64,000 bases of DNA from Prostheceraeus crozeri. Its lineage: Eukaryota; Platyhelminthes; Polycladida; Euryleptidae. Below are positions 7,624-63,300 of this stretch, piece after piece. The stretch covers positions 45,718 to 109,717 of the forward strand of contig CAJQUW010004457.1 of NCBI GenBank assembly GCA_907163375.1, read 5' to 3'. Under the pieces are notes generated by a model. It ran no database searches. It was not told the DNA's origin and saw only the letters and a program-made list of their open reading frames with translations. Within the stretch, counting starts at the first letter, position 1. Each line of letters begins with the position of its first letter. The position numbers were made by a program, and so were the translations under genes.

Positions 7624-7641
7624 GACTGAGTAGATCTCCAC
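7141..7641 (-). pseudogene. Penelope-like element GIY-YIG endonuclease fragment
   Basis: A 166-codon frame whose middle contains DCQYIGKTKRSLHQRKLEH, the GIY-YIG nuclease signature (Y-I-G, downstream R and H), followed by a HIEQC-x-H segment and a final E at the expected distance. In Penelope-like retroelements this domain lies C-terminal to the reverse transcriptase and nicks target DNA. No reverse transcriptase is present, so this is a truncated copy that carries only the C-terminal end. It is intact as a frame but isolated inside the hAT element. A stand-alone GIY-YIG gene is less likely given the perfect inverted duplicate of its N-terminal coding bases at 7052-7087. Confidence 0.7.
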
Positions 7642-7739
7642 CGTCTAAACATTCGTTATTTGATTTTAAGCCTTCGTTGACCGATAAGAACTCCGATTTC
7701 GTGCAGTTGCAAATGGAATCCTGAGAGTTAAATATTTTT

Positions 7740-39311: not shown

Positions 39312-41446
39312 CCCTCTAACTACCATGGGGTCAATTTTTGACCCCACTAATGATCTTTTTCATAGCAAATTTCTCACAAGCTCTCCAACATGTAATGGTT
39401 CTGTGACTTTGTCTGCATGAATATTGCGCTTATATTTAAGTATTTGGATATGTAATAATGTTATTTATAAAGGCGCATCACTGGAAAATCAAAATTCCAT
39501 CACTAATTACCATGGGGGTCATGTTTTGACCCCAAGTTTCAATCCATCAGAAAAATGATGCGTTAACAAATTTATCTTGTTTACTGGTGCCAATTTTACA
39601 ATGCTGTCAGATTCCAACTTAATTGATTTATCTTTTTGTCTGAAATAATAGGTTGCTGTAGTAGATCGAATTACTCCATTATTCGATCCATCTTGTGTAG
39701 GCCTATATAGCCTTGATGATATCCATTCACAAACAGAATATGCCTTTGAATATCGCATGATCAATATCAAGTATATTGACGATGAGCTTTCGTCACACGT
39801 GTGTTCCTGGCAAGCAAGCGGTCTGAGCGACTTCTAACGCCATACATACAAAGCGGAGAGCGCACGGTTCATACCAAGATCTATCTGTTTTGATGAATTG
39901 CACGTGCACTGAGATCATCCGAACTTCGATCGATTGACTCACGACTAGGTAGTCGAAAGACGCGGTATCAGTGACATTTATTTATTCTGTGGCTGGCAGA
40001 CGCTTGTGAACAGTGACATTACATTTGAGGTGTTTATGGCCGAAGGCTTTTCGTCTCGAAGGAAACAGCGAGCTGCTGCTCTTCTGGCGACTAATACGTT
40101 GTTTGGAACTAATATAGAAGAAGAGTCCACTGATGATGATGTCTCAGAAGCAGAAAACTTCAGTGAATCAGCTAATCAATTATCTGAAGTGAGCGACGAT
40201 GATGACGTCTTGAAGGATGAAAGTTCGGAAAGTAGTGAAAACCAAGAAACTCAAACAACACCTGAGTCTTATCATGCACGAGATGGAAGTATCTGGATTC
40301 CTCATCCATCGTCACAGGGTCGTCGAAGGTAACATAACATTGTACGTGAGCAACCAGGTCCCACAAAATCAACCACAGAACGATCGGGTGACCCATTGGG
40401 AGCTTTTTATTGCTTCATAACACCAAGTATGATAAGAATGATAATTACACATACCAATGAAGGTCATCGAGTTCTTGGAGATAGATGGAAAAACGCTGAC
40501 GAAAAAGAGCTGCAAACTTATATTGGACTTCTTATACTGGCTGGTGTGTATCGTGCAAGATTGGAACCTATTGAACATCTGTGGAACCGAGATCATGGAC
40601 GCCCTGTTTTCGCTAAAGCAATGTCGAGGAATCGATTCAGTGAACTCACAAGATGTCTGAGATTCGATGATGAAAACACGAGAACTGACCGACGTTCTAG
40701 AGACAAGCTAGCTCCAATTAGATCATGATCTATTTGCTGCCAAGTGTCGATCAAATTTTAAACCGGGGACGAATGTTACAGTGGACGAGCAGCTGGTGTT
40801 ATTTCGGGGACGGTGTGGTTTCAAGATGTATATACCCAACAAACCGGGGAAATATGGAATCAAGCTTTGGCTCATGTGTGACGTGAGACAAGCTACTGCT
40901 CAAATTTAGAAGTGTACTGTGGAAAAACTGGGCACTCAGCTGAAATCGGCCAAGGAGCCAGAGTGGTCATGCAAATGACAGAACACTTGAAGAATTCCGG
41001 ACGCAATGTCACAGGAGATAACTTTCTCTCTAGCATTTTTCTCAGCAATGCTCTGTTATCAAATAACCTGACCTACGTTGATACAGTCCGACAAAATAAA
41101 CGGTTTTTACCTCCATTGATAACATCGAAGTGTGGTCGAGAAGAATTATCATCGAAATTTGCATTTCAATCGAATACAACTCTTGCTTCATACACTCCAA
41201 GAAAAAGGAAGACAAACTAGCAATAACCACTCCTCTTTCTTGTGTAGGCCTACTTGTTCTGTCTGAAATTATACAATTTACTGTCATGTATAACTCGTAT
41301 TGGTTTTAATATTCACTTTTGTATTCCATACACAAATCGGTATACCAAAATTTACAAAAACGATGATTGTCTTATGAAAATAATATTGGGGTCAAAAAAT
41401 GACCCCATGGTAGTTAATGATGGTTTTATCCCTGGTAGTTAGAGGG
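39312..41446 (+). mobile_element. piggyBac-type DNA transposon, 2.1 kb
   Basis: TTAA duplications at 39308-39311 and 41447-41450. Terminal repeats CCCTCTAACTACC and GGTAGTTAGAGGG are perfect inverse copies. Internal palindromes CATGGGGTCA...TGACCCC near both ends are probable transposase sites. TTAA targets and the enclosed transposase identify the superfamily. It lies in intron 1, close to exon 1 of the minus-strand gene, and in the opposite orientation to it. Confidence 0.92.
40006..41220 (+). pseudogene. piggyBac transposase, frameshifted and truncated
   Basis: An acidic N-terminus (D/E/S-rich, 40090-40250), then after a frame change at ~40330 REQPGPT and the block ITHTNEGHRVLG...WKNADEKELQTYIGLLILAG. 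A second frame change at ~40727 gives NVTVDEQLVLFRGRCGF (first catalytic Asp) and PNKPGKYGIKLW. A third at ~40905 gives VYCGKTG, GRNVTGDNFLSS (second Asp) and VDTVRQNKRFLPP, ending TPRKRKTN-stop. The third catalytic Asp and the C-terminal cysteine-rich domain are absent; intact family members are ~550-600 residues. Inactive. Confidence 0.85.
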
Positions 41447-43998: not shown

Positions 43999-45710
43999 TG
44001 GATGGTGAAACGGTGGCCAGATTCGGATTCAGCGTCAAATTCTGCATCTGTGATGTGATTTCCAGCTCAATCGGCGAGAAAAACTGTTTCTTCAAAATTT
44101 TGGCAGAGTTAAAATGTGGGACGTTTTGGTGTGTAGGGCCCAAACGAAGCCTCGGATGAGAAAACGGAGGCCAGATTCGGATTCAGCGTGAAATTCTGCA
44201 TCTGTATGGTGAATTTGAAAGCAATCGGAGAGAAAAAATTTTTCGCTGACGTCCCCCCCCCTCTGGACAGCTTGCTTCGATTTTGGCTTCCAGTGGACGA
44301 ATTTTGTCGTGCAATAGCTCGTTTGAAAGCTAAGAGTGAGACAAATTCAGTGAAAGAATCGGCTTGTTCCTATCTGTCTTCGTTTAGATGTGAGACGCCA
44401 TTTAAGATTTTGGGACATTGGTGAAAAACGACAGAGTTAGAATTTGGGACGTTTTGGGCTGTAGCTTCAAAACGAAGCATCGGATTGGAAAACGGATTTC
44501 AGATTTGGAATCAGCGTGAAATTCTTTATCTGTATGGTGAGTTTCAAGTCAATCGGAGAGAAAAAATTTTCAACATTTTTCGAAAAACGACAGAGTTAGA
44601 ATTTGGGACGTTTTGGTGTGTAGCGCCCAAACGAAGCATCGGATGAGAAAACGGAGGCCAGATTCGGAATCTACGTGAAATTTTGGGTTAGGAAGGATGT
44701 TTCCAGCGAAATCGGAGAGAAAAAATTTTCACTGACCTCCCCCCCCCTCTGGACAGCTTGCTTCGATTTTGGCTTCCAGTGGACGAATTTTGTCGTGCAA
44801 TAGCTCGTTTGAAAGCTAAGAGTGAGACAAATTCAGTGAAAGAATCGTCTTGTTCCTATCTGTCTTCGTTTAGATGTGAGACGCCATTTAAGATTTTGGG
44901 ACATTGGTGAAAAACGACAGAGTTAGAATTTGGGACGTTTTGGGCTGTAGCTTCAAAACGAAGCATCGGATTGGAAAACGGATTTCAGATTTGGAATCAG
45001 CGTGAAATTCTTTATCTGTATGGTGAGTTTCAAGTCAATCGGAGAGAAAAAATTTTCAACATTTTTCGAAAAAACGACAGAGTTAGAATTTGGGACGTTT
45101 TGGTGTGTAGCGCCCAAACGAAGCATCGGATGAGAAAACGGAGGCCAGATTCGGAATCTACGTGAAATTTTGGGTTAGGAAGGATGTTTCCAGCGAAATC
45201 GGAGAGAAAAAATTTTCACTGACCTCCCCCCCCTCTGGACAGCTTGCTTCGATTTTGGCTTCCAGTGGACGAATTTTGTCGTGCAATAGCTCGTTTGAAA
45301 GCTAAGAGTGAGACAAATTCAGTGAAAGAATCGTCTTGTTCCTATCTGTCTTCGTTTAGATGTGAGACGCCATTTAAGATTTTGGGACATTGGTGAAAAA
45401 CGACAGAGTTAGAATTTGGGACGTTTTGGGCTGTAGCTTCAAAACGAAGCATCGGATTGGAAAACGGATTTCAGATTTGGAATCAGCGTGAAATTCTTTA
45501 TCTGTATGGTGAGTTTCAAGTCAATCGGAGAGAAAAAATTTTCAACATTTTTCGAAAAAACGAGTTAGAATTTTTGCGATGGCTGCCTACTGTAGAGCCA
45601 AAACGAAGCATCGGATGGGAAAACGGAGGCCAGATTCGGATTCAGCGTCAAATTCTACATGGAAATGGTGTATTTCCAGCTCAATCGGAGCACTAGAACC
45701 GGAGAAAGAC
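43999..45710. repeat. 486-bp satellite with higher-order structure
   Basis: Units begin at GACAGCTTGCTTCGATTTTG (44266, 44752, 45238), two complete and a third partial to ~45570. Each unit contains two or three diverged ~165-bp subunits with CGACAGAGTTAGAATTTGGG, AACGAAGCATCGGAT and GAGAAAAAATTTT. Degenerate subunits flank the array (43999-44265 and 45571-45710). Adjacent units are almost identical, so homogenisation is recent. Small frames inside are repeats of the unit, not genes. Confidence 0.9.
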
Positions 45711-45765
45711 GGGATTTTTAGTGTTTGGATGATGGGTATTACGTCATCAGCTGATCGCCACACAC

Positions 45766-45772
45766 TATATAA
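45766..45772 (+). promoter_or_regulatory. TATA-type promoter downstream of the satellite
   Basis: TATATAA with a CRE-like TTACGTCA 20 bases upstream (45739-45746) and a GAC...TTTTCATTT initiator-like stretch ~25-30 bases downstream. It faces the structured-RNA region. Confidence 0.35.
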
Positions 45773-46258
45773 GCTGGGAACCGACGGAGACTTTTCATTT
45801 AGAGGAGAACGATTGTCAGAGGTAGGTCGTCTCTCTGAGCTCCGATGATAGCTTCGGACATTCCAAATTCCAAGTTTCTGTAAGAAACCGACTTAGAAAA
45901 TTTCATTGCTGATATCAGCTAAGCCGTCAGACTTAGAGGTTCGCCAGGAGATGGCCTTCGTCTCCAGGCCATAAAAGACTCCAAAACTTTAAAGGCTCGT
46001 AACTTTGCTTCTACAAGTCCGTTTGACTTGATTCAAAAAAGGTTCGGTCGCTATTGACCTGTCCTAAGTGATGGACTACTTATAAAATTTCATAAGTAGT
46101 GCTAAAAAGTTGAAAATTTTAAATTCACTAGTTTTGGAGGTTTTCTGGGGTTTTCGACCCTGCTGAAGTCAATGAAAGCATTTTTAATGATGTCTGAGCC
46201 AGTCTTCTCATGGTATAAGCGGCTTTTCACTGAAAGCGAGCAAGACACGGAGAGTTTT
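45773..46258. other. leader region with hairpins
   Basis: No convincing coding frame. Contains GGAGA-TGGCCTTCG-TCTCC (45947-45965) and a perfect 9-bp hairpin ACTACTTAT/ATAAGTAGT (46075-46100). Confidence 0.4.
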
Positions 46259-46432
46259 GCTGTAATATTCCACTGACAGGGTGTTCCTTCGGGACGGCGG
46301 ACGATGCCGTAGTGATAAGTGTGGCAAGGGAATGTGTCATATTTAAGACCGTAACCGCTGGGACAACTCATGTCTCATGTTGGGCATTTGACACAGCTCT
46401 CAACGTAGCACTTTGAATGCCAATCGGTTGAG
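46259..46432 (+). repeat. structured ~190-bp element, copy A
   Basis: Starts GCTGTAATATTCC, then TTCCTTCGGGACGGCGG. ACGGC-GGACGAT-GCCGT forms a perfect 5-bp stem, followed downstream by CTCATGTTGGGC and CTCAACGTAGCA. Copies B (46938) and C (47874) keep the same landmarks at similar spacing although the intervening sequence is largely diverged. This suggests conservation of a folded RNA or of bound protein sites. Not recognised as a known RNA family. Confidence 0.55.
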
Positions 46433-46504
46433 TCTTAGCTATCTTGTCATGGGTGGCCTCTAAACATCTCCATTGCAAAACGCTGGTGAATCAAGCTCTC
46501 TACG

Positions 46505-46518
46505 GCTTGCTATCAAGC
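46505..46518 (+). repeat. TGCTATCA-loop hairpin 1
   Basis: GCT-TGCTATCA-AGC. First of seven hairpins in 1.35 kb with this 8-base loop and different complementary stems. Confidence 0.6.
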
Positions 46519-46573
46519 AGATCAAAGCAATAACTTGGGATGTTTCCTCAAGGTTTTCAAGTATGCTGAGTTC

Positions 46574-46591
46574 AAATCTGCTATCAGATTT
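46574..46591 (+). repeat. TGCTATCA-loop hairpin 2
   Basis: AAATC-TGCTATCA-GATTT, five perfect pairs. Confidence 0.7.
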
Positions 46592-46849
46592 CAAATTTAA
46601 CTAAGACTAAGGCAGCTTTGAGGGGTTAGATCCCAGCTACTGTTCACTACCTTTGACTCGGCGTTGCTGTTACCACTTCGGGGCAGTGACAATGATGTCT
46701 TCAGCTGTAAAGAGCGGGTATCGGGGAAGATCTCTCACTTCCCTAGTGATCAGTACAAGGCCTTCGGGCTGTCGACGGGATCGAGTGCCACTCACTACAC
46801 TCAAATCTATCATTCCTCACTAAGTGTAAATTACTGACTATACATTTGT
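46592..46849. other. unassigned segment between hairpin groups
   Basis: Contains GGGGAAG-ATCTCTCA-CTTCCCT (46722-46744) and GGCC-TTCG-GGCT hairpins. They superficially recall P1 and P4 of the nearby ribozymes, but no P2 or P3 can be built. Confidence 0.35.
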
Positions 46850-46861
46850 CCTGCTATCAGG
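46850..46861 (+). repeat. TGCTATCA-loop hairpin 3
   Basis: CC-TGCTATCA-GG; only two pairs, but it keeps the loop and immediate complementarity. Confidence 0.45.
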
Positions 46862-46870
46862 TTATTTTTG

Positions 46871-46884
46871 ACTTGCTATCTAGT
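46871..46884 (+). repeat. TGCTATCT-loop hairpin 4
   Basis: ACT-TGCTATCT-AGT, extendable by two wobble pairs. The last loop base differs from the other members. Confidence 0.5.
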
Positions 46885-46891
46885 TGAATAG

Positions 46892-46909
46892 TCTCTTGCT
46901 ATCAAGAGA
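46892..46909 (+). repeat. TGCTATCA-loop hairpin 5
   Basis: TCTCT-TGCTATCA-AGAGA, five perfect pairs. Hairpins 3-5 lie ~30-80 bases before copy B of the 190-bp element. Confidence 0.7.
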
Positions 46910-46937
46910 TTCACTTCTACTCATAAAGCACATCATC

Positions 46938-47130
46938 GCTGTAATACCTCCTTTGCTCGAGCGTTCCTTCGGGACGGCGGGTACTGCCGTAGAGGGATTG
47001 TGTTGCACGGGTTGTTCGTCGTTTGTTAGACCGAAACCTCTGAGCCGTTGCTCATGTTGGGCGTTCGGCTTCATACTCAACGTGACGCTTTCTCTCGCCA
47101 GGTCAGAGTACTTCAGCCATTCGACAAAGG
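46938..47130 (+). repeat. structured ~190-bp element, copy B
   Basis: GCTGTAATACCTCCTTT, then GTTCCTTCGGGACGGCGG and the stem ACGGC-GGGTACT-GCCGT (same stem as copy A with a different loop), CTCATGTTGGGC, ACTCAACGTGACGC, CTCGCCAGG and TTCGACAAAGG. It shares its 3' part (CGCCAGG, CGA-AAGG) more with copy C than with A. Confidence 0.55.
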
Positions 47131-47290
47131 TTAGTCTTTATGATATGGAGTAGAGTGAAATGTAATTCATTAGATGTCCCTTCAATGATTGCTCCCATGA
47201 TAAACGTTGATGAGACAAATGAAATGATTCTCATCTTCCCTTTTCAATGATTGAAATCTACTAACACACTACCGTATAATCGGCCACTAT

Positions 47291-47360
47291 GGGGCAAGAC
47301 ATGATAGAGCCTTCAATGCGCTTTGCCCTGGGCAGTCTTTAGACTGGCGAATACTATCAT
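47291..47360 (+). ncRNA. HDV-like self-cleaving ribozyme, copy 1 (variant L3)
   Basis: A nested double pseudoknot can be drawn. P1 is GGGGCAA (47291-47297) with TTGCCCT (47323-47329), seven pairs beginning with the typical G-U wobble. P2 is ATGATAG (47301-47307) with CTATCAT (47354-47360). P3 is AGC (47308-47310) with GCT (47320-47322). P4 is CAGTC-TTTA-GACTG (47333-47346). The junction GGCGAAT places the putative catalytic cytosine at 47348. Self-cleavage would occur between T47290 and G47291. L3 is CTTCAATGC, longer than the canonical seven bases and unable to form a good P1.1, so activity may be reduced. A TGCTATCA hairpin follows immediately. Confidence 0.8.
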
Positions 47361-47361
47361 T

Positions 47362-47387
47362 AAGTTGAATCTGCTATCAGTCAACTT
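47362..47387 (+). repeat. TGCTATCA-loop hairpin 6, abutting ribozyme 1
   Basis: AAGTTGA (47362-47368) pairs with TCAACTT (47381-47387); inside are ATC-TGCTATCA-G, with the C-G pair closing the loop. Identical in sequence to hairpin 7. Confidence 0.75.
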
Positions 47388-47411
47388 GAACGTTGCGTCG
47401 CATTAGAGGGG

Positions 47412-47419
47412 TATATAAA
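47412..47419 (+). promoter_or_regulatory. TATA-like box between the ribozymes
   Basis: TATATAAA followed ~20-30 bases later by repeated CATTT and an ATG at 47451. The spacing would suit a Pol II start near 47440. Confidence 0.35.
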
Positions 47420-47707
47420 CCACTGCCTCTCATTTCATTTCATTTCAATCATGCAGACGCCGAACAGTCAAGTCAGCTCTCCTCGCGGACCGCACGAAAT
47501 TTATTTGAGGAGTTTGTCAGGCTAGAGGAGCAAGACAGAGTTTTTAATAATCTTGCTCGGATTGGCAATCCGATGACAGCAACTGCTGTCAATCCAACGG
47601 AATGGCGCTACATTCCACTTTTTAGCCATGCGCCAGCTAGTGTGGAAGTCGACAGTGCTACCAAAGAGAGAGTCAAAGACTCTCTCAGCAGAATTGGTAG
47701 GGTGTAA
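47420..47707 (+). CDS. small open frame between the two ribozymes
   Basis: An open frame ending at a TAA (47705-47707) reads plausible protein: TARNLFEEFVRLEEQDRVF, then WRYIPLFSHAPASVEVDSA and ERVKDSLSRIGRV. It has an amphipathic acidic helix, then a W/Y/P segment and a basic C-terminus. There is no in-frame ATG upstream of the middle of the frame. The nearby ATG at 47451 is in a different frame and stops after 24 codons, so either a frameshift has occurred, a non-AUG start is used, or it is an exon. Not recognised; no neighbour suggests a function beyond lying inside the putative self-excised RNA. Confidence 0.3.
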   Translation, partial: PLPLISFHFNHADAEQSSQLSSRTARNLFEEFVRLEEQDRVFNNLARIGNPMTATAVNPTEWRYIPLFSHAPASVEVDSATKERVKDSLSRIGRV

Positions 47708-47757
47708 GATGACGTTACTCCCGAGAACGAACCATCGGCTCTCTTAAGGGCCACCAT

Positions 47758-47826
47758 GGGGCAAGACATGATAGAACCTCCTCGCGGTTTGCCCTGGGCA
47801 GTCTTCGGACTGGCGAATACTATCAT
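47758..47826 (+). ncRNA. HDV-like self-cleaving ribozyme, copy 2 (canonical core)
   Basis: P1 is GGGGCAA (47758-47764) with TTGCCCT (47789-47795), first pair G-U. P2 is ATGATAG (47768-47774) with CTATCAT (47820-47826). P3 is ACC (47776-47778) with GGT (47786-47788), closing the loop TCCTCGC (47779-47785), identical to the L3 loop of hepatitis delta ribozymes. G47796 and G47797 can pair with C80/C81 of L3 as P1.1. P4 is CAGTC-TTCG-GACTG (47799-47812). J4/2 is GGCGAAT with the putative general-acid cytosine at 47814. Cleavage is predicted between T47757 and G47758. P3 shows a compensatory change relative to copy 1 (ACC/GGT against AGC/GCT). Every element of the family consensus is present. Confidence 0.92.
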
Positions 47827-47827
47827 T

Positions 47828-47853
47828 AAGTTGAATCTGCTATCAGTCAACTT
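47828..47853 (+). repeat. TGCTATCA-loop hairpin 7, abutting ribozyme 2
   Basis: AAGTTGA/TCAACTT stem with loop region ATC-TGCTATCA-G. One base separates it from P2 of the ribozyme. Conserved with hairpin 6, after which the two repeat copies diverge. Confidence 0.75.
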
Positions 47854-47873
47854 GAACGTTGCAAATGAAGTTC

Positions 47874-48068
47874 GGTGTAATACTTCCTTTCGACGGGGGT
47901 TCCTGTAAAGGGCGGCGGTGAAACCCGTAGCTATGTATACCGCAGGGGACATTCGGCAATGGTCAATCTTGTTAAACCTCTCTGCGTCATGTTTGCAAGT
48001 GATTGCCTCTGTCTCAACGTAGTATGCATTCGCGCCAGGGCGACATTTAGCCAACTGTCGAAGGTTGC
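47874..48068 (+). repeat. structured ~190-bp element, copy C
   Basis: GGTGTAATACTTCC, GGGTTCCTGTAAAGGGCGGCGG, an outer stem ACGGG...CCCGT in place of the ACGGC/GCCGT stem of A and B, then TCTCAACGTAGTATGC, CGCGCCAGGGCGA and CTGTCGAAGGTT. Most diverged 5' half, best preserved 3' half. Follows a TGCTATCA hairpin by ~20 bases, as copy B follows hairpins 3-5. Confidence 0.5.
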
Positions 48069-48299
48069 CTAAAACTTTCCATTGCATACGTTATGAGAAC
48101 CATGAGTTCTACCTGTCTCTATCAATGAGACGAATTGATGAATGGAATGAAATGGGAGGACACTCACGCGCCACACGTAACATAACACACTTCTCTCTTC
48201 CGTAGTCTAACAAGCTCTTTACACATGGATCGCAGTCGATTGCTATCCCTGTATCAGAAGTGTAAGCTATCTTAATTTATTTGACACTATTTCATCTAT

Positions 48300-50900
48300 T
48301 ATCATCATCGTCCATATGAAATGTTTTAAGATTTACAAGTTAGACTAAGCGTTCTACTATTTGTAAATGAAAGATATAGTTTCAACAGTTTACAGATTGA
48401 AAATAAAGTTTCAATAGTGTGTGTATGTGTGTATGTTAAGAATAAAGTTTTATCTGTTTGTATGTTAGAAATAGAATGAAGTTTCACCAGTTTACAAGCT
48501 AAGAATAAAGTTCTATCTGTTTATATGTTAGAAATAAAACAAAGTTTCAACCGTTTACAAGTTAAAAATAAAGTTTCAATAGTTTACAAGTTTTAAAATA
48601 AAGTTTAAATAGTGTGCAAGATAAAAAATAAAGTTTGAACAGTTTACAAGCTGAAATAAAGTTTTAATAGTGTACACGTTGGAAATAAAGTTTTAATAGT
48701 TTATGTGCTTCAAAATAGAGTTATAACAGTTTATATGTTAGAAATAAAATGAAGTTTCATCAGTTTACAAGTTAAGAATAAAGTTCTATCTGTTTGTCTG
48801 ATAGAAATAAAACAAAGTTTCAACCGTTTGCAAGTTAAAAATAAAGTTTCAACAGTTTACAAGTTAAAATTAAAGCTTCAACAATTACAAGTTAAAAATA
48901 AAACTTCAAAAGTTTACCAGTTAGAAATAAAGTTTCATCAGTTTACAAGTCAAAATAAAGTTTCAACAGATTATAAGTTAAAAGAAAAGTTCCAATAGTA
49001 TGTGCATTAGAAATAACGTTTCAGCTGTTTGTATGTTAGAAATAAGATAAAGTTTCAATTGTGTGTACGTTAGAAATAAAGTTCTATCTGTTTCTATGAT
49101 AGAAATAAAACAAAGTTTCAACCGTTAACAAGTTAAAAATAAAGTTTCAAGACTTTACAAGTTAAAACTAATGTTTCAATAGTGTGTGTATGTTAAGAGT
49201 AAAGTTTTATCTGTTTGTATGTTAGAAATAGAATGAAGTTTCACCAGTTTACAAGTTAAGAATAAAGTTCTATCTGTTTATATGTTAGAAATAAAATAAA
49301 GTTTCAATAGTTTGCAAGTTAAAAATAAAGTTTCAATAGTTTACAAGTTTTAAAATAAAGTTTAAATAGTGTGCAAGATAAAAAATAAAGTTTGAACAGT
49401 TTACAAGCTGAAATAAAGTTTTAATAGTGTACACGTTGGAAATAAAGTTTTAATAGTTTATGTGCTTCAAAATAGAGTTATAACAGTTTGTATGTTAGAA
49501 ATAGAATGAAGTTTCACCAGTTTACAAGCTAAGAATAAAGTTCTATCTGTTTCTATGATAGAAATAAAACAAAGTTTCAATAGTTTGCAAGTTAAAAATA
49601 AAGTTTCAATAGTTTACAAGTTAAAACTAATGTTTCAATAGTGTATGTATGTTAAGAATAAAGTTAGAACAGTTTACAAGCTGAAATAAAGTTTTAATAG
49701 TGTACACGTTGGAAATAAAGTTTTAATAGTTTATGTGCTTCAAAACAGAGTTATAACAGTTTATATGTTAGAAATAAAGTTTCAACAGTCTACAAGTTAA
49801 AAATAAAATTATAACTGTTTCAAGAGTTTACAAGTTAGAAATTAAGTTTCAATGGTGTATGCGTTAGAAATAAAGTTTTAGCTGTTTGTATATCAAAATA
49901 AAGTTTCAAGAGTTTACAAGTTAGAACTAAAATGAAGGTTCACCAGTTTACAAGTTAAGAATGAAGTTCTATCTGTTTCTATGATAGAAATAAAACAAAG
50001 TTTCAACCGTTAACAAGTTAAAAATAAAGTTTCAATAGTTTGCGAGTTAAGAATGAAGTTTCAATAGTGTGTGTATATTAAGAATAAACTTTTATCTGTT
50101 TGTATGTTATAAATAAAATGAAGCTTCACCAGTTTACAAGTTAACAATAAAGTTTTATCAGCTTGTATGTTAGAAATAAAATGAAGTTTCATCAGTTTAC
50201 AAGTTAAGAATAAAGTTTTATCTGTTTACATGTTAGAAATAGAATAAAGTTTCAACCGTTAACAAGTTAAAAATAAAGTTTCAAGAGTTTACAAGTTAGA
50301 AATAAAGTTTCAATAGTGTATATGTTAGAAATAGAGTTTTATCTGTTTGTTAAAATAAGATCGCAAGATTTACTAGTTTGCAAGTTAGACTTAGCGTTCT
50401 ACTATTTGTAAGTGAAAGATATAGTTTCAACAGTTTACAGATTAAAAATAAAGTTTCAACAGTGTGTATGTTGGAAATAAAGTTTAAGCTATTTATGTGT
50501 TAGAAATAAAACAAAGTTTCAACCGTTAACAAGTTAAAAATAAAGTTTCAATAGTTTACAAGTTAAGAATAAAGTTTCAATAGTGCGTATGTTACGAATA
50601 AAGTTCTATCTGTTTATATGTTAGAAATAGAATGAAATTTCACCAGTTTACAAGTTAAGAATAAAGTTCTATCTGTTTAAGTTTACAAGTTAAGAATAAA
50701 GTTCTATCTGTTTGTATGTTAGAAATGAAGTTTTATCTGTTTGTATGCTAGAAATAAAGTTTCATCAGTTTCCATATTAAAAAATAAAGTTTTTAGCAGT
50801 TTACAAGTTAAAAATAAAGTTTTAATAGTGTATGCGTTAGAAATAGAGTTTTAGCCTTTGTATGCTAGAAATAAAGGTATAGCTATTGTAAAATAATAAA
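48300..50900 (+). repeat. AATAAA-bearing minisatellite, ~2.6 kb
   Basis: Tandem ~28-30-bp units of the form AATAAAGTTTCAATAGTTTA plus CAAGTTAAA, variable in sequence. Most units carry AATAAAG on the + strand, so dozens of poly(A)-signal hexamers are present in one orientation. Higher-order copies are visible: the block with GTGTACACGTTGGAAATAAA recurs at ~48670, 49430 and 49695, and the block TTAGACT(A/T)AGCGTTCTACTA occurs at ~48340 and ~50390. No coding potential. Confidence 0.92.
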
Positions 50901-51385
50901 AATTGTAAGTGATTAGCATATTTCGTTTGCTGAAAAGAAGGTGTTCTGCCTGTTAGTGTTGGTGTATTAATATTGAAGAATTTGGTAGTATCTGTTCAAT
51001 TGAAGACTATAATGGTTCTAGCAAATATTAAAAACAGCAGCCATTATATAATTTATGAAACTGAACCCTTTCCTGCTGCTCTCATTCGAGTGGTACCCTA
51101 TACATATTACCATCCTTCATAACGGGCATTGTATCATAACAGGCTTATGTGATTTCAATAAAGTATCACGGATTGTTAAATTCCTAATGGTGTTATCTGT
51201 TTAATGTATAGCTAATGGAGGCATGTTAAACGTTGAGTTTTTTCCTTCATTCACTGACGACTCATCATATGAATGAGTTAAGGTGAAAACGGTCTGCATC
51301 ATCAATTTGACTGACACAGGCATGCACACGCACTGAATGGGGAAAAGATCAGGCTGTCAATAAGGATGAATAGAATCTTATCTCA
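50901..51385. other. unique sequence before the right flank
   Basis: Ordinary AT-rich DNA with no recognised feature. Composition changes abruptly near 51385. Confidence 0.5.
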
Positions 51386-54300
51386 TGACATCCCACACCC
51401 TACCCCTTATCTTATTCACCCCAAAATACTACCTTTTTTCACTCAAATAATCACATCCCCCTAACCCCCTCACTCACAACTCATATCCACACCAAACCAC
51501 AATCACAAAAACTATCCACACAAACCCCTCCTCCATCCCTATCATACCTCCCCATAACCACCTATCCACTCTATAAATATAACAAACAACTCCATACTAA
51601 ACTCCCCACTTCTCACCCCCTCATAATCCCCATAACTCCCCCAACTCCCCTCTCTAACATATCCTATAACCAATCATCATCCCCTCACCACCCAAACCAA
51701 AAATCAATCCCCACCCTATAACACACACCACCATTCCCTCTTCCCCCTGATCAACATTAAAAATTCAGTGATCGACGTGTTCACTGTTCAGAGATCTCCT
51801 ACTGAAAGGTAGTCTCTTACCACACTCCTGGACTTGTATGATCATTCTGCTATGAACAATACTCCCATACAATCCACTACCCACCAACTGACGAGACCCC
51901 TCAAACCAGTGACACTTCACCGCCCCATCGATCGACCACAATCAACAGTTGTCCAACCACAAAACCCCCCCAATGATTTGTCTCCTATAGACCCCACCCA
52001 ATCCTGCATGCAAATCACCCCACACTGTTACACTGTGTCCATCTCAGAGTGATACCCCCCTATGATATCAACATAACCACATCCTCGCCTCTGCACCTCA
52101 TCAAGTTGATTCATCCTAATGACAAGTCCAGTAGTGTGATGATGTACAAACCTCTCTCTCTCTATCTGTTCTCTATAATCTGCCCCCTCTCCGTAATAGA
52201 CACAGTGTATCGCTCGTCTTGTGTTGCTGTAAGCTTACCCATCTACTCTTCTATCCGCACGCCTGTTCTGTCAATGTCTCTGATTCTATATTGTATCCAA
52301 TCCCCCCTCTCTATAACAGTCAGACCTTAAACAACCATGTCCCAAATCCAACCAATGTGTACTACCCCTCCACAACAATGTCTAACCCTCCTCTCAACCA
52401 CCCTCCACCCATACACCTCCCTCCTCGAGATGAGAGTTCATTTATACAAGATGCAAACTCCCCATTCCCTGTGACCTATGCGGCCACAGCCTCTCGCACT
52501 CTAACAATTTTGAAAAACTCAAGTATATCTGATCTTCTCTTGCGCTACCATGTGCATACCTCCCCTCATCAAACATCGTCACTGTGTGTGTGCCACATAC
52601 CTTCACCACCAGTGTCTACTCAACCTCCAAGAATATCAGATGTAACCTCTGCAAGTGTGCTATCCTCACAGTACACTGCAGACTTTGTTACATATAGACA
52701 TTAAATTATATTCTCCCTCCATCTCTAACTAACTCATCAGAACCACCAACACCAACTCTACAACCACTCTCAAAATACTCTCCACCCAAATCACCAACAC
52801 CTAGTAAAAACACAGCTGTTCCTCAAGTACCACACATTCTCGAAAACGTGTGCCTGCCCGATAGACCACCCTAATATATCTTCACGCACTCTCTGATCTC
52901 CGACATACATGTGTCTCATATCGCGTGTTCCTCACTATCCTATGTACTCAGTATCGTCCAGCCTCTCCCCCTACTCCTAATTCCCTATTCAACATATCCT
53001 GTGTCCTATGTGCACACACCCACGCCTAACCGATAACACCCTACCTCATACCTTCTCTATTATCAAGTCTCAGACATTGTTTATAAAACCATTTTTTTAC
53101 ACTCCATCCTATGCACCTTGTCTATCCCCTAGTTACCATTCAAAATAACACCCCAGACATACACCACTGTGACCCATCTCAGACCCGCAGTCAATATACG
53201 GTGTCATATTGACTCATCTCAACAACACGTGATGCCTCTGATATCATGATCAACTACAGTTGTCAACCAGTTCAATCACACTATATTCTTCCCCTACCAC
53301 CCCATTTTTCAGGTTCCTACCTGTACACCCAAGATGTGTATCCCTCCACTCATAAGTTGACCACTACTAGTGTCTCTCATCACACATTCATAGAGAGTAA
53401 AGAAGACCCAGCGGCTACAACCTGTCCTCCTCTATCATAAGTCACTCACGTGTCCCACACTCATGTGTCCCAGAACACTCTCTCTCTGATCAAGACTCTC
53501 ATGTTTATTACTAATACACCACTCTCTCCACCAACATCCAAGACTTAGACTTGTGATCTGATATGAATAATCCTAAGGTCATTCATTATTCCTAAGTACA
53601 GTATGTACAAATATTATGCCGTGCTATGTCTTTGTACCTCAATCTTATAGATCCCTCCCCCCTTCCTTTATCAAATCATACCCCACTATGCGATGCAGTA
53701 CCAGTGTACATCAGATTGACTTTGACACTTCACCAAGCGCGTATCCATGTATGAACTCCCCTGTATTTGTGTGTCCATTTGAATATACCATGATCGTTAG
53801 ATCATCCCACGCATGACTTGTATCCGATGTTCAGCTTTATTATCATACATAACACCCTACTCAACACTCGAGATCCATGATAATACTGTCAGAGTGTGAA
53901 TCCCGTGACCTTCTACGTGTGTCTCCTAGTGTGATCACAATCGTGACTACCTGCTCCTCAGAAACATCCTAATCCGCACCGAGAGATATGCATTGTACTG
54001 TCTCAAGACACATCACAAGAGCTGTGTTGCAATCGACCTTAGAAACTGTCTCTCAATTGCTACTACCACGCGATCACTATATATGTTCTCCCATCGAGAG
54101 AAACTAGTGAGAGAGAGATAGTATCCGTATGTGACTAAATCTTCACTAGCACTCACCCTAATTAATTCAGTAGGACCTCATATGGACTTCCCCAAACTCA
54201 TCCCTTAACACCTAATGTTCTCTACAATGGTGTACTTGTGTGAGTCCATCAACACAGTTGTGTCTCTGTGTCCCCGTTTGTGACAATCAACATCACTACT

Positions 54301-57300
54301 AATCCATCAACCTTATCCCCATTAATATCGCCTCCCAACTTTCCTGATCCCCAAATAAAAATACCTCTACCTAACTACAACAACATAACTCTCTGTGTCG
54401 AATGTAACCTTCTTGCACCCATATCTCATTGCTTGTAATCAGAATCCATCAGTGTTACTACTTCACAACATAATCTTCAACCACCCCTACAAAACATTTT
54501 CATTATCTGTCCACACTAAGAAATGTCTAAAAACTTCTCCCATCAAATCCCTTAATACCCACATATGTACGTGCCTTGTATATGTCAATTCCTCTCATGT
54601 CATGACTAGTCCCACTCCTAGACATCCAGAACTAACCTCTATAGCATTCCTACCCCACCAGAGTAAGTCTCCTCATATCACCAATCCTCATACATGCCTT
54701 CCCTACCGTGCGAGTTGCGAACCAACCACGTCAATGTTACTCCTCTCTCCAACTTCACGATCTTTCACCCCATCTAAAGTCATTACAATCCTGAGTGATA
54801 AGCGTGCCATCATGTCTATGATGTTTCGCATACTGATCTTGCCGATTAGTCCACCGTAGCATTCATCTCAATCCCTTATCACACAAGCAGATCTATGTCC
54901 CTATCTTCCCACTCTACTCCTAGACATGAACAAATACCATAACCCTAATACCACTACCTCTATCCACAACATTGAACCCATATCCTCCTTGTGATCACTC
55001 CCCAAAAACTCTCCCACACGATATCTCTTCTCATTTCTAGAAACACCCAAAAATTAAACCCTGTCTCATTGTCTCTGAGTCACACTGCTTGTATCTGTGT
55101 GACTAGACCATTACAAGCAGAAACCCCACCACTGAAACCCTCCTCTCTACGCTAACACCTCAAGTCAATCATGTGACCCCCATATCAACATCCTATTTTC
55201 TCCTCACTCTCTATCACAATCTGACTCTATACCTAGAGAGACCACAATCTTACCCTGAGATCCCCTCACTTCCTTAAGCAGTCTATAGTTTCCTGTAGCA
55301 GTCGCTACTACTTCCAACACCTCTTTTCACAACACCCCCAGTCACCCCCCTTTCATTCCCCCTCTCCCACCACTACCGACACGTCTCCCTTTCACACTAG
55401 TCCTTCTCTACTGCTGTTGTTATTACACACCCCCATATGCGTGTGTAGTGGTGTTGTTCACCGCCATGTAATCCAGTGATCCATTTCGATCCCTATTATT
55501 CTAGACAACTAACTCTCTCACAGTGACCTCTTTGTGAGAGAGAGTGCACACACGATACACGCTCTCTCCTCCCATACACCTTACTATTAGAGAGATAGAT
55601 AGTTCTTTGACATCACTCGAGACAATCACTCCTTAAGAGTACTCTCCCACACTAACACGTGTGTATTACATCATCACTATTCATCACTTACATGCTCTCT
55701 CGCTCTAGAAACCAAAACCCCCTCTCCATCGTTTGATATTATGTCGTCAGCTCCTCCCAAAAAGCTGAGTCTGATCCACCTAGAGATAATGTGACATCTA
55801 ATATAGATATACGACTCACACTTATGAGAGTAGTGTGAATGAGAAGCGCCCTGTCAGTTTAACCCACCACCGCCCTCTATAAAAATACATACCCGTCTAC
55901 CACCTTGACCTCATTACTATTATCGTTGCACAGCGCAATTAGTCCCCTAAACGCTTAGTACAGAAATATCAAAGACTAAATTAAGATACATCGACCCAAC
56001 GGCTTGATGTTGCACTTAGTGTGCCAATCAATTCTCCCCATGCAGTGCCGAGTGTACTGCACGATTGACAGTATGACAAGCATGTCTCAACTCTGTAACC
56101 CGATACATCGAGAATGTCTCTGTTGTTATAAAACTTATCGCTCTATATGTGATACATCCTGTCCCTCTCCACCCTCCTCCTCCATGTTCCTTTTTCTACT
56201 GACCGAGCCTTCTAGACTCACAATACATGTGTCTATACCTCATCTCACTGCTACCATGCCTGTGAGTTACCCACTGAAACACTACCATCGAGAGACATGT
56301 TGCACTATCTATCTTGTGTGACATTGTGTGTAACGTTAGAAGACCTCTGTCAAAAACACACTAAAGAAGCTCCATTACCAGTGTGTGTTGTTAATCATCT
56401 ATCTGTACCTCTCCACACCCTATTAACAGATCACTACTCGCACTCTGTGCCACTAGATATATCGTGAACCAGTAGTGTTAGATCGCTCCCCATGTATAGA
56501 AAGTGCGCTAAGTCCTGTCTTAGTAGTATTGTGTGTTCTCATCTAGTATCAAGACACCATACCTCGGCCAAGCTGTCCGCTTATTGTGTCTCAGAATCTC
56601 TCTATATATAAGATTTTATAAAGCTCTAGTGTAGAGTGTGACAATACATGCGAATGAAAATTTTAAATGCGCATCATCCTCCGATGTCACTACTCCTAGG
56701 TGCCTCCCAACCCTGTTCTATTCCCACACTCCCCCCCTGTAACCAGAAAAATGATGCTTCTCCACCATTATAGTGTCTCTATTAGTGTAGTAAGAACATC
56801 ATTCCAAACCCAAAACGCACAGTATGTCCTGTGACATGTGACCTAATCCTGCCACCAAGTGTTAGGCACATACAATTCCTCCTAATAAAGCCCCAATTGT
56901 CTCTCCTATGGTCACAGGTGTGCTCCTTCAATCTCTATCCATTCCTATCCTTCAACTCGCCACGCTCTCTCGTCGCGCCACTAACTGTGTGCTATAACTC
57001 AATACAGATACCTAATATATCTGAGAACTCCCATGAGTCACTCTCCCTCACCTCCTCATCTGTCAAAGAGACCCTCAACTCTGTCTCAGTGATCCCTGTC
57101 AGTTCCGCCTGTCATATAGTCTGCGATCACAATGTACTATAAATACCCCCACTAATGCAACTACACTATAAATCATAGACGATCTGTAGCCTATAATCCT
57201 CTCTCAAAGACACCTGCGTATGCCAAGGTCCACTTCCATATGAAACACGCCAATCATAGATAACTGCTCTCATAATATCTCTCGTTTCCTCTCCTCTATC

Positions 57301-60300
57301 TGATGTGATGTATATCGTGTGTGTCCCATAGAGCGCAGCACACACAACTCTCTTCATGTGACACAAATCTCAGAGACCGTGCCTGAGTGTGTACTCCTCA
57401 CTCCCCCCTCTAACGCCACATAAAACACCCCAAACTCTATTATCACTCATAATTGAATCACCCTCTCATGTGATATAGATGACAGTACATGTGATGAAAA
57501 CCCACCAATCTTCTTAAAATTCAACCCCCCCCCCCCTCCCTCAGTCATCTCCACCCGTGAAAAATACGCACACGCCCCTCTGTCTAACCACACCACAGTA
57601 CTTGACATACTGTATGCCTCTTCAATGTGTGTCACTCCGTCCCGCACTACTTCCAAGCTTTATCCCGAACCCTGACCGGTGACTTATCACGCCCTCCATC
57701 TGTCTCTACAGACACCTTCTCGCACTGTCCGTCGTGCGCTGTATAGATATACTCATTATTCTTGAGTGTCATCGCAAGCTCTCCACAACATCTCATACGC
57801 TGTAATGACCCTCTAGTAAACTCACAGAATAACACACTCAATACACCAAAATTACCATCTCCAATCACCATTCCTCCTATCTCGTAGTGTGTGATCACAT
57901 GTAACAAGTCCCCAACATAGATTTCTCGCTGACCCCAGATATAACCAATCTCAAGACTCAATTTCACAATTTAACCTCACTACAAACTTTACAACCCCAA
58001 ACATCCCTTACCTCACAAAATAACAACTTATTACACACATTTCTTCATATCTCACTAATCATCACTCTTAAGATCTTCCTAATGTTCCACCCGCACTCCG
58101 CACATCTACATTTCCTTACGACCACCAAAACCGATAAAATATATCTACACATTGAACTACATAACGATTCATCCAAATAATATAACTCCAATATTACTGA
58201 TTCGCCGTCTCTCATACTCAAAAATCTCTCTATTCACTCTTATCAATTCCTACACCTAAATTAGAACTTGCTACCTACATACTCACCCCCAAACTACACA
58301 CCCCCCACTCCCTTGAAAAATAATCTCATAACTAGAAAACATCCCCTTCCCTTCCCCTATATATCCGCCTGTGGACTATACATTCAATCAGATGGCTACT
58401 ATCCTCAATTACACTTAACCACTTGTGAGATTATCTAGACGAACCTATCATCTAATCGTACTCCCCTCACTAAAATCCAATATCATTTACGTCCAACTAC
58501 TCATCACTATCATCCTCCTAATCTGTCACTCACCTCCCTCACAAGTGCAGTTCTTCTGTCCCTACTCCATCAAGAGACACAACACCCACATTGTCCCGAT
58601 CCTGACCGTCCTGTCGCTGTACATACCTATCAAAGAGACACGTACACAGTACCCCTTACTAATACTAATGATCTGCTATGTCTCTGCTCTTCTCCTCAAT
58701 CTCTCGAAGAGACAGAGACTCTCACACCCTCGCTCCTTAAGATACCGTTATCTTACACCTATTACTCTAAAGATACCCCCTCTATCTAGTCGTGTCACGC
58801 CACTGAACCCTGTGTGTCGCTCATGACGTGTCTCCTCTAGATCTCCACTCTATCACCTCTGCCTAAGATAACCAGTACATATACATCTGATCATCGAAAG
58901 CATCACTCTCCTATCTATACCGTGCCCTGAGTCTCTATCGCTCCCCATGCCCTACACTAGTTGTCCTCAAAGTCTATCACACACTATATCCGTAGATCAC
59001 CAACACTTATCTGTCCATTGCCAACCCAGTCGCCTTGAGAAACAAGACCACCTGTCTATAAGTCTATATATCATAACCACCCTCTCAATCCCAATTACCA
59101 TCCTTATTTGAGAAGAAGTGTCCACCTACCAAGACATACAGAACCTCACGACACACTCTAAGTCTCGCCCCCGTGTGTCTCTAGCCCTAATCTATCTAGA
59201 ACAGATGTTGCACATCAGTATATATACGATCCATCTCACGAACGTCCTACTCCCACCCCCTGAGTCATATCCTAACTCTGTACCTCACCCTGTACTTCCT
59301 CCTCTGTGTAATAGAGATGGATAGAAAGATAAGATCACCAGACATATCAGAATGTGTGTTGTCTAGTACCATCACACTTCTCATTATATAATTGTGTGTG
59401 TGCCCATTCATTGATGTGTAATCACAATTTTGACAGGATCCACACGCCCTCATGTCCCTACTCTACTAAATCTTCTCTGTATCATGTACCCAACTCTCGA
59501 GTCCAGGTGTCTCATCTATCACAGCCTCTGTCTGTGTTCCACACCATCCTCTAACCCTCTACATATATCCTTCCTGTCCAGATAGACAATATTGTGTGCA
59601 CCTTTGCACACCCAACTCTTCAGACTAAACATCTCGGGTGTCCCAAATCGCTGACATCTACTCTTGTCCCACATTGATCATCATCTACATCTCAATGTAA
59701 CTGTAGTAACATTTCACTACACCACTGTGTCCATAAATACAGTTGTGCCCTCACATGAATATATCACGAATATCTGTCTCACTTACCGTATAATATTACC
59801 ACAAAAAATAACCACCTCACTGACTTCAAAAGCTGTCATCTTGTATCACCTATTACCTACTGCTAAATAGGCAATACCTGCAACTCCTCTTACCCAATTG
59901 CTGTATCTCCATAGATCATCTCCGTAGCACTCACTATGTGAACTACAAATCGTCATCTATCTCTAATCATGTAAAGAGTTATCACAGTTAGCAGCATACA
60001 ATGAGTCTGATGTGTCTAGTAAACTCTTGTCTCTCTAAGAGAATCCAATCACTCCTAAAGAAATCGCCCCCACCTTTGAATGCTAGCTCACAACTAACAA
60101 AGAGCTACACATCTCTACTCTGGAGAATTCCCACTTCAAATTATGAGAATGTGTCTATAATACGTTCTGTGTGTACTAATATTTTATATAGAAAACATGT
60201 CGAAGACTGACGCTGTGTATAGAACACAAGTCTATCAAGAATATCCATCATCACTGAATAACACCCTAACTATCACATTACCGTATGTACTCCCCCATCC

Positions 60301-63300
60301 CCTCACCACTCTGCATGCCCCAGTCTACTCACTAGTCTCTCCCCCTATCTAAGAGAGATCAGACAATATCACTTTCCTACGTGTCCCATCCCAGTCTAGA
60401 ACCCTCACTCCTGTGTGTGTCCTCCTCCACATATAATCTCCACACTCCGCTCACTCTCTAACCCAAATGACAAACACTCATCGCACATGCTGTCTCACCT
60501 CGAACCACAACACCTAATGTGACCACACACACCCAAATCAAGTACTCCCATTCTAAAACACACACCACATATACCTGTGCTCCATCTACCATTAACACGT
60601 TACATAGAAACCACATTTGTCGTCACCCGTCTGTAGTAGTGACAATAAATTATATATAAGGTAACTTCAGTGTCCAAGTTGTGACGCATTGTGTCTTCCA
60701 TCAATACCTTGCAGATCAACTACTCACAAACTACAGAGAACCCCCCTATCTCTATTCCCGTGACTAGAGTCTCTCCTCATGTGTAACCTCCCTCCAAAAC
60801 CCCCTCTATACACACCGACACTCTCCTCCAGAGTGTCCCCTGCCGTCCTCGTGTCTCAACATTCTATTCACTTGTTTAGAGACCGAGTGAGTGAGCCCCA
60901 TCCATCATACATCCTAAATCTATCTGAACTCTAAGAACAATGACTGTTGAAAACAAGTGTAGAAGACTTTTCACTCTTGATCACATTCTACACATCAGAA
61001 ACAACACAGACCTGAATCTTCGCTCTCGTGACAGAGTGTGCCAAGTAGACCTAACCCCAGACATGTTCTAGTGATGTCCTCACACAACCACCACTATGCC
61101 TCGCTAATCTTTTGCGTTCCTCGTACGTAGTAACAGTCGCCTTTACAGAATGTCCAAAGCTGCAAGGAATCATTCTTCTGACTTCCACTAAAACTACCAA
61201 TCACCTGATGTACACGAAACCAACCTTATTTATACACAACATCACAATCAAACCTCATCACAAACATACCCCCTCTCCCCCTCCCCGACCTTCTCACATC
61301 TAACTATCTAGTGCATCACCCCATGTATCAATGACCTCTCAGTCCTCTTTCCAAAGTACTACCGCTTCTCCTCCCTTGTTTGTCTTCTTTGTTATGAATA
61401 TCCTCTCCACCTTCTGTGTGTGTACCCGCTAACTGATAAAAAATGTTCGTGTTCTGAGCATATAGTTGTTCCATTGCCACCAGATCTTACATCCACCCGT
61501 ATTGAGAGAACTCCTACATACCAATCAAATCACAAATAGAGATGAATTGTGTTCAAGACCTGTACGGCTGCTCACTAGATATGAGAAACTTCCACATCCA
61601 AACCCCCTCCTCTCAAAACAAATCAGTCTACTATTAGTGTCGTCACCTATGAATACTTGCTCTATAGAATCTATACTTCTCCGCTGTGTGTGTACCCAAG
61701 ATCCAACCCAACTACGCTTCTCCTGCCTAAAAGTGCCTAGATGATCCTTACACCTGACTCCCACTGTGACCCTCAAGTCCAGTGTACCCTCTTCAAAAGT
61801 AAGTCATGTCTGACTTGTACTTAGACTCTTCCCCAATGATATAAGTGATTTCGTCAGCACAACTCTAAATTCCACAGGACAAATGTGAGAACACAGTTTC
61901 TCTCATACTCACGTGCCGTGTCAGTTTCGTATACACACTTGTAGTGTGTCTATAAAAACCAAAATCAACCCCTTCCACCCATTCTACCTCCCCTCAATAA
62001 TCCCATTTAAATCCTAGCACATGCAACGTGTTCTAGTCAGAGACATTGTGATGAGTGTTCTTGCATAAACCCTTATGCTACACTACACTCCGTGTGCCAG
62101 AATGTGTCTCCCAAAATAGCACCTGTTCCTACACTAGAGTCTACGCGAGCCACATCTATGCCACTCATAATATTGAAGAAAAACCAATTCCCCGCACTCA
62201 CAAACAACTGATAAGCACACCATGACGTCAAACACCCCCTCGCTCATCCGACTATACCTAGAGTCTACTTCGCTTTCTCTAGAAGTAATCACATAGATGT
62301 GACCTAAATGTTCTACCCACTAAGATCTATTCCTCTCGTAGTGTCAGCCTCTAAATGTATCCCGCGCCGCTCAAGACTTGCGTCTAAGAGCCTATCCACA
62401 TGCCTCCCGCAGTGTAGCATCTGATCTACTGTCTTTAGCTAGTACCGCGTCTAGTGTGCCTCACGTGACACAGATTACTTGAGAATGACTCACCTGCTAA
62501 ATGCCACTGTGCGTATTTGTGTGACCCTATCACGTCACATGATTCACTTTCTACTCCAGAGATCGTGATTCATCCAAAACAAATGTTACTCCGCTCAATC
62601 TTGCAAGGTAGACCAACCTGTGTTGCTCATCATAAGATCCACACCTGTAGCTGTGTGCACGCAACCCATCTAGAGATAGAAACTCTACTCCTCCACTCAT
62701 AGTACATAGAAAACAGATACTTATAGAACTCGTAAGACAAACGAGTGTGAACCCTGAATCCTATCTCCATTGTGTGACTAGTAGACATCTATCCTGTCTT
62801 ACCCTGAAGTCGTCACATTGTACAGAGTACAGCAAAATGAGACTCGTGATGTCCGAATCTAGAGCGCATATAGTTCACCTCAGTAGCATGTCTGTACGGA
62901 TCCTGCTTGAGTGATCTAAATCCCTGAATGCCTCACTCCATCGACTGTGTAACGTCCAGTTGAGTAATTCAGACGCCATGTATGTGGGTATCTAGCTTGA
63001 CTTTAAACCTCTGCACCGTAGCAACTCATCACCCTAACTCTAGCTCTTCGATTCTTTCGCATCCTTGCGAATGGTATAGAGCGAGTCTCCTAGCCGTGAT
63101 ATCTCTCTTGCTGTATTCCTCTATTATGTATCTAGTGCCCAGATACTGTCGGCTTGAGAGCGTCATCGGTCTGGCCGAAAAGTGATGTCTGTTGATTGTA
63201 TCCGGGCGTGCGTAGCGTTGAGAGGTGTGCGGATATCCACATCGGGCTGACACTAAGCTAATACACTGAATGTTAGGTACATTCATGACCAACGTGCCAA

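Follow-up and report, generated by a model that had tools for sequence, protein, structure and literature searches.

A probable HDV-like ribozyme among repeated structured RNA modules in the polyclad Prostheceraeus crozeri

We analyzed a stretch of 64,000 nucleotides from the polyclad Prostheceraeus crozeri (GenBank assembly GCA_907163375.1, contig CAJQUW010004457.1, positions 45,718 to 109,717 of the forward strand; hereafter the window, whose own numbering is used throughout), with the focus on a predicted self-cleaving ribozyme of the hepatitis delta virus-like (HDV-like) family, here termed rz2. Around it, and on the same strand, lie an altered second copy (rz1), a stem-loop of the type seen at histone 3' ends, a folded domain D in three copies (Da, Db and Dc) and a family of hairpins bearing the motif UGCUAUCA (Table 1). 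None of these four was part of the original prediction, which had described rz2.

Table 1. Features of the module stretch, with positions counted from the first base of the window
Feature	Positions	Strand	Remarks
TTACGTCA and TATATAAG (45766), left edge of module stretch	45734..45800	+	Promoter-like by eye only
Structured domain Da	46258..46462	+	Alignment and fold
UGCUAUCA hairpin	46505..46518	+	Stem GCTTG/CAAGC
UGCUAUCA hairpin	46574..46591	+	Stem AAATCTG/CAGATTT
UGCUAUCA hairpin	46850..46861	+	Stem CCTG/CAGG
UGCUAUCA hairpin	46890..46911	+	Stem AGTCTCTTG/CAAGAGATT
Structured domain Db	46935..47140	+	Alignment and fold
Ribozyme copy rz1	47291..47360	+	P3/L3 differ from rz2; P1, P2, P4 stem and J4/2 unchanged
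UGCUAUCA hairpin after rz1, bulged stem	47360..47389	+	
Open frame between rz1 and rz2	47390..47707	+	105 codons, stop TAA at 47705-47707; coding not supported
TATATAAA	47412..47419	+	Promoter-like by eye; one of 17 plus-strand TATAWAAR sites in the window
Histone-3'-end-type stem-loop with ACCAT, up to the predicted cut	47737..47757	+	GGCTCT-CTTA-AGGGCC at 47737-47752
HDV-like ribozyme rz2	47758..47826	+	Predicted cut 47757/47758; predicted catalytic C47814
UGCUAUCA hairpin after rz2, bulged stem	47826..47855	+	
Structured domain Dc, 3' of rz2	47871..48078	+	Alignment and fold

The probable ribozyme rz2 and its altered copy

The elements of rz2 can be traced base by base. Helix P1 (7 bp) pairs GGGGCAA (47758-47764) with TTGCCCT (47789-47795), its first pair, a G-U, lying at the predicted cut, and is joined via J1/2 (GAC) to P2 (7 bp), formed by ATGATAG (47768-47774) and CTATCAT (47820-47826). 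P3 (3 bp; ACC, 47776-47778, with GGT, 47786-47788) encloses the loop L3 (TCCTCGC, 47779-47785), and is followed by the GG of P1.1 (47796-47797), P4 (CAGTC, 47799-47803, with GACTG, 47808-47812, around a TTCG loop) and J4/2 (GCGAATA, 47813-47819), which contains C47814. The five helices occur in the nested double-pseudoknot order that characterizes the family. The active-site bases are likewise in place, namely the G at +1 with its U partner, the U/G and C bases of L3, whose roles follow PMC3774820, and the catalytic C of J4/2. All the helices, loops and core bases originally predicted are thus present, and fold and core bases together back the assignment to the HDV-like family: judged from its sequence, the segment is very probably a genuine self-cleaving ribozyme.

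To gauge chance, we compared the window with randomised versions that keep its local dinucleotide content. A strict descriptor, the terms of which were composed after the sequence had been seen, matches two plus-strand places in the window, rz2 and the copy lying 467 bp 5' of it, and nothing on the minus strand; no randomised window out of 200 meets it. With a loose descriptor, requiring the helices and a minimal J4/2, 68 of 200 such windows contain one or more matches, and hence it is the core bases, rather than the helices alone, that carry the weight. In an Rfam scan of the window nothing reaches its gathering score. The RF00094 model gives rz2 27.5 bits against a gathering score of 50 (E 0.043 in a 401-base search and 0.29 in a 2701-base search), and RF02682 gives 26.5 bits against 44 (E 0.0053 and 0.036, respectively); both align to rz2 over their full length. 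The original prediction had counted the lack of any covariance-model hit against itself; given these full-length matches below threshold, the outcome falls between a hit and its absence. As the gathering score is a curator's cut-off and not a biochemical definition, such scores neither exclude nor prove a diverged member of the family. They would also suit a relic or chance likeness that no longer cuts, as would the alterations of the sister copy and the presence in the window of several transposon remnants with fragmented frames. Nevertheless, the intact helices and core bases of rz2 and the failure of randomised windows to match the strict descriptor make such a reading quite improbable.

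The second copy belongs to a duplicated module, made up of GGCCAC-Y-AT followed by the ribozyme and by a hairpin some 30 bases long; its two occurrences, 47282-47396 and 47749-47862, share 92% identity over 115 bp. In rz1 the P4 loop is TTTA and P3/L3 is replaced by AGC CTTCAATGC GCT; since this changes L3 bases needed for the active site, rz1 probably cuts weakly, if at all. An apparent covariation in P3 between the copies was dropped, as the pairing register shifts. Beyond the 115-bp module the surroundings of rz1 and rz2 show no clear likeness, and as the sequences 3' of the two differ, a retrozyme-like circular RNA present as a tandem dimer was rejected. Like retrozymes, the locus is repeat-rich, of animal type and carries a small ribozyme more than once, but retrozymes have hammerheads in repeated monomers (PMC7229834), unlike the differing sequences that follow the two ribozymes here.

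A histone-type stem-loop ahead of the predicted cut

Immediately upstream of rz2, GGCTCTCTTAAGGGCCACC (47737-47755) agrees at 17 of 19 positions, with two mismatches, with the animal histone 3' stem-loop consensus (GGCUCUUUUMAGAGCCACC, applied after the Rfam Histone3 row had been seen). It is the only match with three or fewer mismatches on either strand of the window, where 0.01 would be expected, and one of 100 shuffles held such a match. Hairpins with a GG-initiated 6-bp stem, a four-base loop and a closing CC number six on both strands together; this one alone has the ACC flank. The stem forms both when folded by itself and in the predicted fold beside P1. Since the Rfam row drew attention to it, the pattern is post hoc; the spacing to the cut was not chosen. 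Cleavage by rz2 is predicted 5 bases past the stem and would leave stem-loop-ACCAU, an end much like that of a mature histone mRNA, which terminates about 5 bases past its stem. With the histone element (RF00032) it has in common the 6-bp stem, the four-base loop, the ACC flank and the position of the predicted cut; it differs in the CUUA loop, which is not the usual histone one, in a score below the gathering threshold (18.1 against 34 bits; E 0.026 for the 401-base and 0.17 for the 2701-base search), in having a ribozyme next to it and in the lack of a visible histone gene. Only the final bases of the stem-loop are retained at rz1.

These likenesses raise the question of whether the ribozyme serves as a 3'-end maker. 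The short transcript, perhaps starting from the TATA-like box at 47412, would then end with a 2',3'-cyclic phosphate 5 bases past the stem-loop, with neither poly(A) nor the U7 small nuclear ribonucleoprotein (snRNP). This would accord with the consensus match, the ACC flank and the stem's proximity both to the cut and to the stop codon of the intervening open frame, the TAA of which ends 29 bases ahead of it. The sub-threshold Rfam score, the atypical loop, the near loss of the element at rz1 and the application of the consensus after the Rfam row had been seen point the other way, as does the frame itself (47390-47704), in which the first Met is residue 62. There are 28 stop-to-stop frames of equal or greater length in 2001-51000; its codon periodicity lies at percentile 84.8 as a whole and 91.5 for 47441-47704; its best rows are E 0.26 in Pfam and E 0.14 in PDB; and its predicted structure is a poor model (mean predicted local distance difference test score 57.9). 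A small protein between the ribozymes is thus unsupported by length, periodicity, Pfam, PDB or predicted structure, and ten histone words sought in six frames were not found. We regard this role of the ribozyme as unlikely. We find equally doubtful the wider proposal that an HDV-like ribozyme here replaces the U7 snRNP, so that the upstream RNA gains a histone-like 3' end lacking poly(A) and the downstream RNA is headed by the ribozyme and built of the repeated domain D and UGCUAUCA hairpins.

The abutment of stem-loop and ribozyme at the predicted cut might also be a fossil of a template jump, in which a reverse transcriptase copying ribozyme-trimmed element RNA switched at G47758 to a histone mRNA, starting from its 3' end, and so joined stem-loop-ACCA to the ribozyme. 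A few histone words and a Pfam comparison of the one frame revealed no histone coding sequence upstream, and we consider such an event highly improbable. In the open-access literature, outside of which most subscription papers lie, we found neither a histone stem-loop paired with a retrotransposon, with or without a ribozyme, nor a self-cleaving ribozyme paired with the stem-loop binding protein; the novelty of the combination is unproven.

Domain D, the hairpin family and the extent of the module stretch

Domain D, of about 205 nucleotides, occurs three times on the plus strand. RNAalifold applied to a MAFFT alignment of the copies (A1) yields 41 pairs, 15 of them with compensatory change by its own count. 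In a separate count on A1, 91.1% of cells pair and 16 of the 41 pairs are changed on both sides, a figure matched by 0 of 500 shuffles and falling to 1-4 such pairs when the partner is slid by 1-3 columns; the structure was derived from these same three sequences, which favours it. On refolding, a trimmed alignment (A3) has an energy of -31.2, against -19.8 +/- 3.6 in column shuffles, with one of 300 as low. Its covariation term lies outside all 300 shuffles (the sign convention of the routine being unchecked), and the tool gives a favourable -3.55 on A1. Folded singly, the copies are not unusually stable (z -0.37, -1.16 and -0.64). Up to E 10, a covariance model of D recovers nothing in the window but Da, Db and Dc, which match by construction. 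Rfam lists seven rows for 45650-48350 at E 5 or lower (both HDV models, the Histone3 model and four weak ones), none of which overlaps D.

The motif UGCUAUCA caps stems of differing sequence. There are six plus-strand copies of TGCTATCA, all within 46508-47838, and one copy on the minus strand of the window, at 26116; as two of the six lie in the duplicated ribozyme module, five occurrences are independent. With six copies, UGCUAUCA is the commonest 8-mer of 45700-48350, while no 8-mer exceeds four in 300 randomised stretches. Folded alone, five of the hairpins (all except the one after rz1) give z from -1.18 to -3.66, and a TGCTATCT variant at 46875 gives -1.35. On the plus strand seven stems of at least 4 bp carry a G-C-closed CTAT tetraloop, which makes it the most frequent loop there; the minus strand has none. 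Four of the seven lie in the hairpin stretch and a fifth at 48267. A further motif, GCAAGACA, is seen at 46240, 47294, 47530 and 47761 (two of these inside the ribozyme copies) and three more times elsewhere on the plus strand; its recurrence may be due to chance, since 9 of 300 randomised stretches hold some 8-mer four times.

To the left, the module stretch is bordered by a 486-bp tandem array (44104-45654) and, to the right, by an unrelated AT-rich array of 29-bp units carrying AATAAA (48475-50851). The promoter-like TTACGTCA/TATATAAG, recognized by eye, along with AATAAA, first found at 48402, would allow a single RNA polymerase II transcript of the stretch. The stretch at 45.8-48.4 kb could also be read as a single long noncoding RNA gene in which protein-binding modules recur and the ribozymes process the transcript from within. 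Such a gene would account for the placement of all modules on one strand between the TATA-like site at 45766 and the AATAAA motifs from 48402 onward, and for the excess of UGCUAUCA; two of three pieces also fold somewhat more stably than shuffles (z -1.84, -1.97 and -0.62). However, TATAWAAR sites number 17 on that strand across the window, which makes the TATA-like site a poor indicator of a promoter, and we judge a gene of this kind improbable.

Possible retroelement context and a proposed working

HDV-like ribozymes are located at the 5' ends of R2 and other long interspersed nuclear elements (LINEs), and the genomic ones are known largely as trimmers of the 5' ends of retrotransposon RNAs, according to PMC7761336 and PMC8256844. 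The stated lack of an adjacent reverse transcriptase holds for the two frames compared with Pfam, the only ones scanned (47390-47704, plus; 47611-48090, minus), neither of which has a reverse transcriptase family. The list of plus-strand frames for 47705-48752 includes none of at least 70 codons, so that the downstream reverse transcriptase of an R2-type LINE was not found there. The nearest putative LINE relic, recognized by motifs only, lies on the minus strand at a distance of about 20 kb. Fragmented minus-strand frames at 25185-27610 resemble, by motifs only, a LINE with an R2-type endonuclease; no reverse transcriptase match to these pieces was found in Pfam (six pieces) or PDB (two).

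The R2 target in 28S has no match in the window with three or fewer mismatches. An 11-base piece of it, CTCTCTTAAGG, lies at 47739-47749, just upstream of rz2, with a 10-base inverted piece at 47714; 28S 9-mers number 106 in the window against 107 expected, and four other 11-mers match elsewhere. An R2 inserted in 28S ribosomal DNA (rDNA) was accordingly rejected as the principal interpretation on the basis of the target mismatch, the chance-level 9-mers and the greater number of bases covered by the stem-loop. No relatives of the protein of the intervening frame were found in viral_contigs or genome_contigs; exact patterns of the ribozyme, D and the stem-loop have no match in viral_contigs, nor that of D in genome_contigs, and a search of phages and plasmids with the whole stretch gave no relatives. 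As the patterns required exact matches and the collections are viral, bacterial and archaeal, these searches say little on animals.

Elsewhere in the window, transposase remnants are seen at 4845-5895 on the minus strand (hAT dimerisation region, E 6.8e-6; DUF659, 1.3e-8), and on the plus strand at 9139-9570 (Transposase_1, sub-threshold at 0.0029) and 40333-40725 (DDE_Tnp_1_7, 1.4e-21). The transposon families seen agree with the original description of the locus as animal. A minus-strand stretch at 7144-7644 looks GIY-YIG-like, as in Penelope-like elements, by motif only; Pfam gave its frame one sub-threshold, unrelated row. The base content is lopsided by strand in places, with C at 0.4% in 700-1750, G at 0.5% in 51380-51760 and a GC skew of -0.37 to -0.49 across 52001-62000.

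Taken as a whole, we propose, with confidence evenly balanced, that a genuine ribozyme cuts a longer RNA and heads a unit descended from a non-autonomous retroelement of the LINE type. Specifically, rz2 would fold into its nested double pseudoknot while a longer plus-strand RNA is transcribed and, as the fold suggests, would cut just before G47758, with C47814 acting as catalyst. The downstream product would bear a 5'-OH and start with the ribozyme, followed by the UGCUAUCA hairpin and Dc, and the upstream product would end in the histone-like stem-loop. The unit of rz2, hairpin and Dc would descend from a non-autonomous LINE-type element comparable to the short internally deleted elements (SIDEs) of R2 and R2/R1 in Drosophila. 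Transcription, cleavage and retroelement origin, as well as any protein binding by D or the hairpins, are what we infer from the following: the full fold with its core bases, the full-length Rfam HDV matches below threshold, the existence of rz1, the compensatory changes and low consensus energy of D, the hairpin family and the known precedents among R2, other LINEs and SIDEs.

The precedents correspond in part. With the HDV-like ribozymes of R2 and other retrotransposons lacking long terminal repeats, rz2 has in common the double-pseudoknot helices, the order of active-site bases and the cut 5' of P1; the locus departs from them in the reverse transcriptase and 28S results given above, in the stem-loop ahead of the cut and in the closely spaced second copy. 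SIDEs, according to PMC3414825, require only a 5' ribozyme and a 3' RNA bound by the retrotransposition protein, and the unit here is similarly short, with an HDV-like ribozyme first and structured RNA thereafter; unlike in SIDEs, D is not established as the 3' untranslated region (UTR) of an autonomous element, and the unit is not in rDNA as far as the window shows. R2 proteins recognize a folded element of the 3' UTR, according to PMC12222951.

Several observations weigh against the proposal as a whole. No target site duplication, element ends or autonomous element were found at the locus, and the reverse transcriptase searches were negative in the frames covered. Da and Dc stay weakly alike past the domain edge (62.9% over 62 bp), so that D is not established as a 3' end, and the bare count of 16 compensatory pairs is attained by 17 of 300 column shuffles of A3. 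Upstream of the cut rz1 and rz2 have 9 bases in common, 8 of the 9 alike, which favours DNA duplication over two insertions starting at the cut. The original prediction had also held that the host transcript is something other than a LINE. The repeated structured RNA modules and the degenerate copy agree with this in part, as they look more like a retroelement-derived or long noncoding RNA unit than like an ordinary host gene.

If the proposed ribozyme-headed unit works as outlined, one act of cleavage would give rise to two special ends, the 3' one resembling that of a histone mRNA and the other belonging to a structured RNA that starts with the ribozyme; were the upstream end used, it would amount to a protein-free route to a stem-loop-ended RNA. 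Independently of this, domain D is a candidate structured RNA: it is present three times, shows compensatory changes and has no name in Rfam at the thresholds used. Both ends and D could be examined on a single short transcript from the locus.
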